Origin: Candidatus Saccharimonadota bacterium | GTDB lineage: Bacteria > Patescibacteriota > Saccharimonadia > Saccharimonadales > UBA4665 | Assembly: GCA_024635495.1 (NCBI GenBank) | Contig: JAGXIT010000005.1 | Location: 62,001-126,000 of the forward strand | Direction of reading: 5' to 3' | Length of the DNA stretch: 64,000 bases | In this document: in pieces, positions 19,150-44,988 of the stretch | Position numbering within the stretch: the first letter of the stretch is position 1 | How the letters are laid out: the number at the start of each line of letters is the position of its first letter | Translations under genes and position numbers: made by a program | The notes under the pieces: generated by a model | Told to the model about the DNA's origin: nothing | Database searches by the model: none | What the model saw: the letters and a program-made list of their open reading frames with translations, nothing else

Positions 19150-19226
19150 GGGCCCGTAGCTCAGCAGGTTAGAGCAGTGGCCTTTTAAGCCACGTGTCGT
19201 GGGTTCGAATCCCACCGGGCCCTCCA
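19150..19226 (+). tRNA. tRNA-Lys(TTT), CCA encoded
   Basis: GGGCCCG...CGGGCCC-T-CCA acceptor; anticodon loop CTTTTAA; GGTTCGAATCC T arm. Confidence 0.95.
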
Positions 19227-19318
19227 AATAGAATGACTCACGACAGTGGGTCTTTTTATTTGGCTGAATCGTTGAATTGAATCTACGACAGAGATTTTTC
19301 TGAAAGAAAAATATCGTA

Positions 19319-19428
19319 GTCGCGGGTTCGGTGGAGCTAAAGCTCTCGCAGGTGCTTGCACCGAGAAAGCTTCGGCGGAAGAGTGTTTTGGCGAAGCCAA
19401 AATGTGCGCTATTCCACCGGGGTCTCCA
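19319..19428 (+). repeat. Degenerate 3'-half copy of tRNA-Lys with 82-nt insertion in the T loop
   Basis: GTCGCGGGTTCG (11/12 to tRNA) - 82 nt - TCCACCGGGGTCTCCA (vs CCCACCGGGCCCTCCA). Confidence 0.8.
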
Positions 19429-36945: not shown

Positions 36946-37842
36946 CTACGGCGCGATCAATTCGGCATAATTTCGGCTGATTTTCAGCACATAACCGCGG
37001 GCAATATCAATCTGCGCACCATTCCGTGCAGATTGTATCGCTTCACCAATCCGGGCAATGAGTTTGCGTGAGATAGTAACATTTGTGTGTTTGCGCAACC
37101 AGCTTGCTAAAATCTCGGCACCTACCTCGATCGGCAATGAGCGAAAATCCTCTCTGTCGAGTTTCTCTGTATCGCTCAGCTTTTGAAGATACTCATCAGT
37201 GAGTAGTGAAATGGCGTCATTTAAGTCAGCCGCTTTCGCGCTGTGTTCAAGCAATTGCTTGCGGTTTGCTGCGCTGAGCCGTGGCATAATCTGTTTGCGA
37301 ATGTAATTTCTTAGATACGTCTCGTCATCGTTAGTACTATCTTCGTGCCACTGCAGTTTGTTCTCGGCAGCATAGTCGCGAATAGTCTGCTTCGTGAACG
37401 CAAGCAGTGGCCGACGAAGTGTTTCTGTCGAACGCAAGGAGCTCAAGCCCCTGCTCTTTGTGCCGCGTAGTAAGTTGATGATAACTGTCTCGAGCAAGTC
37501 ATCTTGATGATGAGCGGTAATAATCGCATCGGCCCTCATGGCCTGCTGGACTTTTCGTAGGAAGGCATAGCGAGCGTCACGAGCCTTTGCTTCACTCGCT
37601 TTCGGCCCTAAACGTGCCGTGTCATACACAAAGGGCAATCTATATTGCTTACTCAGTTTCTGCACAAAGGCTCTGTCTTCTTCAGAATCTGGGCGAATGC
37701 CGTGATCGAAGTGAGCAACAACAAGTCTCAGATTTGAATCAGGCTTTTTGGCCTGCTCGGCAAGCAGATACAGCAACACGATTGAGTCGACACCGCCGCT
37801 TACTGCTATCACGTAGTTACCTGCTGGCACTGCAATCTTCAT
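36946..37842 (-). CDS. tilS: tRNA(Ile)-lysidine synthetase
   Basis: AVSGGVDSIVLLYLL...HFDHGIR...HHQDDLLETVIINLLRG. Confidence 0.95.
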   Translation of the reverse strand: MKIAVPAGNYVIAVSGGVDSIVLLYLLAEQAKKPDSNLRLVVAHFDHGIRPDSEEDRAFVQKLSKQYRLPFVYDTARLGPKASEAKARDARYAFLRKVQQAMRADAIITAHHQDDLLETVIINLLRGTKSRGLSSLRSTETLRRPLLAFTKQTIRDYAAENKLQWHEDSTNDDETYLRNYIRKQIMPRLSAANRKQLLEHSAKAADLNDAISLLTDEYLQKLSDTEKLDREDFRSLPIEVGAEILASWLRKHTNVTISRKLIARIGEAIQSARNGAQIDIARGYVLKISRNYAELIAP

Positions 37843-39318: not shown

Positions 39319-39402
39319 AAGGGAAAAGAGCAGCCAGAGTTGGCGGATTCATTCCGCAACCCTGCGCGCCGAGAAAAACCGTAGGTTTGTCTTGGATATC
39401 GA
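39319..39402 (+). ncRNA. Structured tRNA leader (motif A + hairpins), shared with 44649 leader
   Basis: AAGGGAAAAGAGCAGCCAGAGT then GTTGgCGGA..UCCGCAAC hairpin then CCGAGA...UCUUGG hairpin. Confidence 0.5.
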
Positions 39403-39479
39403 GGCGGCGTAGCTCAGCTGGTTAGAGCACAGGACTCATAAGCCTGGGGTCAGTGGTTCAAGTCCACTCGTCGCTACCA
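39403..39479 (+). tRNA. tRNA with CAT anticodon (Met or Ile2), CCA encoded
   Basis: GGCGGCG/CGTCGCT acceptor, loop CTCATAA, GTTCAAGTCC T arm. Confidence 0.93.
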
Positions 39480-39518
39480 AAGTAAAAACCTCACCTTCGC
39501 GGTGAGGTTTTTACTTTG
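39480..39518 (+). terminator. Terminator after tRNA(CAT)
   Basis: AAAGTAAAAACCTCACC-TTCG-CGGTGAGGTTTTTACTTT. Confidence 0.9.
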
Positions 39519-39570
39519 ATTTTGGCTAGGGGCTAAACTACTGAGCCCAGTGAGCAACGCATGTTGCGTC

Positions 39571-39669
39571 TGGGGTCAGTGGGTCGCGGAGCAAAAGCTC
39601 TCACAGGTGCTTGCACCGAGAAAGATTTTGCGGAGGAGCCGTAGGCGATAGCTCCACTCGTCGCTACCA
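39571..39669 (+). repeat. Degenerate 3'-half copy of the upstream tRNA(CAT) with 70-nt insertion in the T loop
   Basis: TGGGGTCAGTGG (12/12) - 70 nt - TCCACTCGTCGCTACCAA (18/18). Confidence 0.85.
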
Positions 39670-39764
39670 AGAAAAGTGCTTACGTCGAAAGATGGGGCTT
39701 TTTTCTTGGCTTGTTATTTCGTTTGTACGGCCGTGTACAATAGAAGTATTAAGGGAGAACCAGT

Positions 39765-44648: not shown

Positions 44649-44724
44649 AAGGGAAAAGAGCAGCCTGAGTAAAGACCACAATTTTTGCCCAGCGCGATGA
44701 GAATATCTCATATGCACCCTATGC
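44649..44724 (+). ncRNA. Structured tRNA-fMet leader sharing motif A/B with 39319 leader
   Basis: AAGGGAAAAGAGCAGCCTGAGT ... CAGCGCGATGAGAATATCTCAT. Confidence 0.5.
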
Positions 44725-44799
44725 CGCGGGATGGAGCAGCGGCAGCTCGCATGGCTCATAACCATGAGGTCCCAGGTTCGAGTCCTGGTCCCGCAACCA
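44725..44799 (+). tRNA. Initiator tRNA-fMet(CAT), CCA encoded
   Basis: C1-A72 mismatch (CGCGGGA/TCCCGCA), loop CTCATAA. Confidence 0.93.
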
Positions 44800-44863
44800 A
44801 AATAATGCACTCACCGAAAGGTGGGTGTTTTATTTTTGTTTTGAGGCTAGATTTGAGCCAAAA

Positions 44864-44935
44864 AGGTTCGGCGTATGTGAGTGAGGCGAACGGAGAAGCC
44901 CAGCTCTGCTGGGCGCTGTCCTGGTCCCGCAACCA
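44864..44935 (+). repeat. Degenerate 3'-end copy of tRNA-fMet with 47-nt insertion in T loop
   Basis: AGGTTCG - 47 nt - GTCCTGGTCCCGCAACCA (18/18 to tRNA). Confidence 0.85.
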
Positions 44936-44988
44936 AGAAAAAGACCCCACCGAAAGGTGAGGTTTTTTTCTTGGTTATAAGATTTAGG

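Follow-up and report, generated by a model that had tools for sequence, protein, structure and literature searches.

Small structured units at tRNA genes of Saccharibacteria and the origin of a partial copy behind tRNA-Ile2

Saccharibacteria are small parasitic bacteria and form one of the most reduced bacterial groups. The window, which is the whole stretch of 64,000 nucleotides analyzed here, belongs to an 820-kb genome (G000) of 5 contigs and 42 tRNA genes, and it contains an intact tRNA gene that is followed by a partial copy of itself. We asked what this copy is. ARAGORN labels the gene as tRNA-Met, with an anticodon loop that reads CTCATAA; from this loop we take it to be tRNA-Ile2(CAU) and not tRNA-Met. 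The tilS gene lies nearby, at 36946-37842. Two exact blocks make up the copy: TGGGGTCAGTGG (39571-39582) repeats tRNA positions 39445-39456 (12/12) and TCCACTCGTCGCTACCAA repeats positions 39463-39480 (18/18). As the initial annotation had described, the blocks are 6 nt apart in the tRNA and 70 nt apart in the copy, with the break at the T loop. The terminator that it placed between tRNA and copy is present, with the refinement that its exact span begins in the CCA end itself, and the second hairpin after the copy was also located (Table 1). A shuffle test over the 236 nt downstream put the sense copy above chance (score 34 against a 95% null of 20).

The stretch turned out to be more than a "T-loop-expanded" tRNA copy, and that description as an entity of its own is not supported. 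It resolves into a terminator, an antisense tRNA 3' half, the 5' side of the T-arm, a structured core and a tRNA 3' end that is probably displaced. The antisense 3' half had gone unmentioned before, as had the conserved core, which is common to the element behind tRNA-Lys; the tRNA-Ile2 and tRNA-Lys elements, 20 kb apart, are 88% identical over 51 nt of the core stretch. The antisense part (A) is weak on its own at tRNA-Ile2 (score 22 against a 95% null of 20) and weak in the window's units generally, but it is clear in congeners, where GGCTTGAACCACTGACC in genome G002 and GGGCTTGAACCACTGGCCCCAG in genome G003 are antisense to their own tRNA-Ile2. In the predicted fold A pairs with the sense copy of the T-stem 5' strand (S'5'), and the whole element is more stable than shuffled sequences (z -3.7). 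Both core hairpins are conserved across tRNA types and genomes. We count the CCA-rooted terminator within the unit because the downstream sequence is unrelated in element-free orthologues. We read the second such hairpin as the probable beginning of an earlier unit that has since decayed.

Table 1. Coordinates of three tRNA genes in the window and of the unit parts behind them.
Feature	Position	Strand	Remark
tRNA-Ile2, anticodon CAU	39403..39479	+	ARAGORN and Rfam; intact
Terminator-like hairpin rooted in CCA end of tRNA-Ile2	39477..39518	+	counted as part of the putative mobile unit
A, partial antisense copy of tRNA-Ile2 T-arm/variable region	39529..39550	+	GGGGCTAAACTACTGAGCCCAG
S'5', sense copy of tRNA-Ile2 variable region and T-stem 5' strand	39570..39583	+	
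Core of tRNA-Ile2 unit	39588..39624	+	GGAGC-AAAA-GCTC hairpin and CRCA-GGTG-CTTG-CACC-GAGAA hairpin
S'3', copy of tRNA-Ile2 from T-loop to CCA	39653..39670	+	probable displaced (attR-like) end
Second CCA-rooted terminator hairpin, after S'3'	39666..39709	+	probable start of older, decayed unit
tRNA-Lys(TTT)	19150..19226	+	with same kind of unit
Unit behind tRNA-Lys	19224..19428	+	
tRNA-Lys unit: terminator	19224-19263		
tRNA-Lys unit: antisense part	19272-19290		
tRNA-Lys unit: T-arm 5' side	19314-19330		
tRNA-Lys unit: core	19333-19369		
tRNA-Lys unit: putative displaced 3' end	19411-19428		3 mismatches in 18
tRNA-Met(CAT)	44725..44799	+	with short unit, without covarying core hairpin
Unit behind tRNA-Met	44797..44974	+	
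tRNA-Met unit: terminator	44797-44838		
tRNA-Met unit: antisense-like part	44845-44859		
tRNA-Met unit: internal motif	44865-44873		GGTTCGGCG
tRNA-Met unit: putative displaced 3' end	44918-44935		18/18
tRNA-Met unit: second terminator	44933-44974		

That the copy is of a recurring type had been noted before, and an inspection of the 700 nt behind each tRNA gene of G000 bore this out. Behind many of them the parts follow in the same order: first a hairpin with its base in the CCA end, then an antisense T-arm, GGTTCG (or an equivalent), the core, and last a tRNA segment that reaches from T-loop to CCA. At 13 of the 41 testable genes, 12 nt of the gene's own T-stem/acceptor 3' strand recur 118-184 nt downstream with no more than 2 mismatches, and every one of these cases has a shuffle p <= 0.003; tRNA-Ser(TGA) was left out of this count because its matching piece is the neighboring tRNA-Ser. 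Three more genes, those for tRNA-Tyr, tRNA-Ser(GCT) and tRNA-Glu(TTC), have the core and a decayed terminal fragment. The partial copy is one of many in Saccharibacteria, and the inserts that carry such copies are structured and about 150-200 bases long.

We built a covariance model of the core (R1) and used it to follow the units into other genomes. R1 matched 12 places in G000 and was present in 40 of 80 relatives within Saccharimonadales, with up to 35 matches per genome; these counts are lower bounds because some units, such as those at the window's tRNA-Met and at tRNA-Asp of genomes G004 and G001, lack the core hairpin. Across the phylum, at E <= 1e-6 and with reduced sensitivity, 6 of 380 sampled genomes had a match. 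A stricter DNA pattern found 7 contigs among GTDB genomes. Six of them bear a Saccharibacteria or Saccharimonadia title, and the title of the seventh says only "bacterium". Copy number differs sharply within genera (35 in G070 against 6 in G007; 12 in G000 against 2 in G006). No real unit was found in 2.9 million viral contigs, where the single pattern match had no tRNA and apparently lay within a coding region. An Rfam search of the tRNA-Ile2 unit stretch gave no family at gathering or relaxed thresholds, and the literature we searched contained no description of such units.

The relation between unit and tRNA was examined in 66 core-bearing units that adjoin a tRNA gene, each compared with up to 30 other tRNAs. 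The terminal fragment fits its own tRNA better than every other tRNA in 57 of the 66, and the antisense part does so in 24, where about 2 are expected. Terminal fragments are decayed in many units; in all well-kept ones the putative displaced end starts at the same point of the T-loop. Watson-Crick pairing holds in 256 of 264 cells of the core hairpin, which covaries mainly at pairs 2-4, by GC/AT and AT/TA exchanges, between near-constant flanks (CRCA and GAG(C/A)A). Covariation of this kind means that a single strand, of RNA or DNA, is folded somewhere in the life of the unit. G-U pairs outnumber A-C pairs by 5 to 2, with similar folding energies, and these cases are too few to tell which strand.

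Orthologous tRNA genes differ in whether they carry a unit. At tRNA-Ile2 it is present in G000, G002, G003 and G005 and absent from G004, G001 and most other family members; the upstream side, with a TauE-like protein and tilS, is kept in many relatives, whereas the downstream side is variable. Similarly, tRNA-Met has units in G070 and none in G007 of the same genus, whose downstream sequence differs; here, too, the upstream genes are kept. The perfect identity of the longer block had been taken to indicate recent origin, gene conversion or selection. Recent origin does account for the identity in some cases. A conserved functional copy would, by the initial annotation's own reasoning, persist in sister strains, and it was rejected because the unit is absent at orthologous tRNA-Ile2 genes and R1 counts fall from 35 to 6 within one genus. 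Intergenic spacing also changes with the unit: tRNA-Asp and tRNA-Thr are 66 and 90 nt apart in two genomes without it versus 226 nt in G000, and about 66 of these 226 nt come after the putative displaced end.

The tRNA-Ile2 unit of G003 carries a foreign tRNA end. Its A and S'5' parts match the local tRNA-Ile2, and its S'3' (TCTTGTCGCCGCTACCA) is how tRNA-Ile2 ends in genomes of other genera (G007, G020, G036 and G038), which is as expected if a former host end had been displaced. It is the one case where fragment and restored gene represent different versions of the tRNA; other cases are ambiguous. The pattern is reversed at tRNA-Asn of G023, where the unit agrees with the displaced end and not with the local tRNA, so unit histories can be complex and the order of events is not always simple.

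Units also form tandem arrays, with or without cargo genes, and rows that include cargo resemble gene-cassette arrays. Met-type units in G070 stand directly behind tRNA-Met and recur some 3 and 8.5 kb further downstream; a Bax-inhibitor-like gene and HsdM/HsdS (type I restriction-modification) genes separate them. Five Gln-type units are spread over 7 kb behind tRNA-Gln of G058, with genes between, and the tRNA-Asp array of G001 runs unit, unit, 257-aa gene, unit. In G000, tRNA-Asn and an Asn-type unit flank a 16-kb island, whose genes include one for a large serine recombinase as well as the complete set for a type I restriction-modification system; next comes a stretch of 1.1 kb that codes for a membrane protein of 166 aa. 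At the hairpin foot, 4 of 11 scored detached units, and likewise the third unit of the G058 Gln array, still start with roughly the final 10 nt of the tRNA; the rest do not.

Two further observations concern these loci. Similar membrane proteins of 166-171 aa, without a Pfam match, are found by tRNA-linked units of two distant genomes (L126:2142-2642 and L124:11645-12160); the 166-aa protein of G000 resembles one by the Gln array of G058. In the tRNA-Asn island of G000 (C5:150500-170200, L126), the serine recombinase frame ends inside the tRNA gene, read antisense.

The composition of the units, their specificity for the adjoining tRNA, the covarying core, presence and absence at orthologous genes, the arrays and the foreign end in G003 all fit a very small cassette, integrated site-specifically, that has the displaced tRNA end on its right. 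A housekeeping RNA agrees with them poorly, and a T-loop-expanded tRNA does not agree with them. We thus consider it probable that the tRNA-Ile2 copy is the displaced, attR-like 3' end of the gene, shifted by a small integrated unit that supplied a replacement 3' half. Such a unit, of roughly 150-200 bp, would consist of the replacement segment from T-loop to CCA, the CCA-rooted terminator, A, S'5' and the structured core, and its junction would lie just 5' of the T-stem 3' strand, a position estimated by comparison across species. Site-specific recombination at the T-loop in the tRNA 3' half would make the junction, bringing the new 3' half in and pushing the old one aside. Since A is partly complementary to the tRNA copy, one strand could adopt a hairpin fold that mimics the tRNA target, by analogy with attC in integrons. 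Units without cargo may depend for their mobilization on a recombinase that acts in trans, for which the single Xer of the host is one candidate. Taken further, Saccharimonadales might possess an integron-like cassette system on ordinary tRNA genes, in which the folded strand of antisense arm and tRNA copy imitates a tRNA 3' half and is recombined by the single host Xer or another enzyme; we offer this extension tentatively and regard it as rather doubtful.

Some of the same evidence could be read as the mark of a non-coding RNA with a defined structure, transcribed together with the tRNA as rtT is and kept by selection, whose tRNA-like tail serves processing or acts as a decoy. The rtT RNA of the E. 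coli tyrT operon consists of tandem repeats downstream of a tRNA, each with a tRNA 3' end, and the units share this position, tandem layout and tRNA end. The stability of the folded strand (z -3.7 against shuffles) and the covarying core hairpin would also suit an RNA. However, a terminator stands ahead of each unit, orthologous tRNA genes within one genus or family often have no unit, some units lie kilobases from the tRNA with genes between, and terminal fragments are often decayed. No Rfam family matched at gathering and the rtT model gave no match even at E<=5; to our knowledge, a covarying core, an antisense part and cargo genes are no part of rtT. An RNA under selection is thus an unlikely explanation. 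A T-box or riboswitch reading was discarded as well, because the stretch contains sense copies of its own tRNA and has no regulated gene downstream.

Two other origins at the DNA level were considered. A simple tandem duplication, or slippage of replication at the palindrome that tRNA and terminator form, with subsequent gene conversion with the tRNA, would agree with the CCA-rooted terminator and antisense part, which look like a fold-back duplication, and with tRNA-Asp of G003, where the hairpins after tRNA and copy are identical. It does not predict a conserved, covarying core that is unrelated to the tRNA and recurs inside units of different tRNAs and genera, and it leaves the cargo cassettes and the foreign end in G003 without explanation; we rank it as the least probable of the readings. 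Alternatively, the units could be CIME-like, decayed leftovers of ordinary tRNA-targeted islands with large serine or tyrosine integrases. The tRNA-Asn island of G000 could be such a source, and serine recombinases are common in the order Saccharimonadales, but integrase number does not track unit number (7 serine recombinases and 0 R1 matches in G002; 0 and 35 in G070) and one core is common to many different tRNAs, unlike what independent integrases would leave. We judge this origin improbable.

The integrated-cassette reading invites comparison with known elements. CIMEs have attL/attR-like flanks, encode no recombinase and accrete in tandem; known examples are kilobases long and relate to one ICE. 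The units likewise have att-like ends, tandem layout and no recombinase, with no helper identified, and differ in that one core family serves many tRNAs. Tycheposons are tRNA-anchored cargo islands, and the units share both the anchor and the cargo but are far smaller, with no integrase found with them. In the Islander work on tRNA genomic islands, the element restores its target tRNA and a displaced 3' fragment marks its far end (PMC4383910), and intact tRNA and far-end fragment are likewise seen in the units. Unlike such islands, the units are about 150-200 bp, occupy many different tRNA genes simultaneously, have a structured core and an antisense T-arm in common, and lack the integrase that usually defines a tRNA island. 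Integron cassettes each end in a structured, imperfectly palindromic repeat and are sometimes gene-free (PMC11641012, PMC3053210), and the former describes attC hairpins as folded single-strand sites. The unit arrays also have a structured repeat after each cassette and some gene-free members, but their anchor is a tRNA gene and not attI. Because attC core sites (GTTRRRY/RYYYAAC) occur in 0 of 66 units, and G000, G070 and G058 have no second tyrosine recombinase that could be the IntI-type enzyme beside an array, the units fail as integrons on both attC consensus and integrase. Their anatomy recalls tRNA islands and CIMEs, and their layout recalls integron arrays.

A recombinase that could move the units was sought in and near the small units, and none was found; the three window units, each under 250 bp, encode none. 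G000, G070 and G058 each have one PF00589 tyrosine recombinase, which in G070 is presumably Xer. With 35 core matches, G070 is the element-richest genome; of the four recombinase families searched it encodes only this tyrosine type, and genes for large serine recombinases, for Y1 and for IS110-type enzymes are all missing. Additional tyrosine recombinases and serine recombinases were accordingly rejected as movers, as were the IS200/IS605 (Y1) transposase, absent from G070, G015, G063 and G041, and the IS110 transposase (PF02371 absent from 12/12 genomes). Both the host Xer and a helper that has since been lost are possible. Separately, in several genomes no more than a few kb separate the single tyrosine recombinase gene from a tRNA-Arg(CCT)/tRNA-Asp region (G000, C4:60951; G058, C3:14268; G041, C20:346456).

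If displacement by small units is correct, these would be among the smallest tRNA-integrated elements known to us, on about a third of the tRNA genes of G000, and would offer a candidate for a new recombination site that is directly testable. The tRNA genes would be docking points for cargo such as restriction-modification systems, and the variable downstream flanks of Saccharibacteria tRNA genes would be explained. Partial tRNA matches in these genomes would then be displaced gene ends, a warning for annotation.

Finally, short motifs recur around tRNA genes and fragments. At locus L119, the three displaced tRNA-Met ends (~2560, 5630 and 11030) share the ~80 nt that come next, which contain a promoter-like TTCACAAAAACCCTATCTGTTA, and a CYCTGTT motif also stands upstream of many tRNA genes. 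Several tRNA genes of G000 share a leader that consists of GGGAAAAGAGCAGCC, a variable hairpin and GCGCGATGAGAAAAACCGNAGGTTTGTCTCAT. This leader has no Rfam match at gathering within the window, where it occupies 39321-39402 and 44651-44724; by pattern it precedes 6 of the 42 tRNAs, and it is also found before tRNA-Ser(GGA) and tRNA-Leu(TAG).
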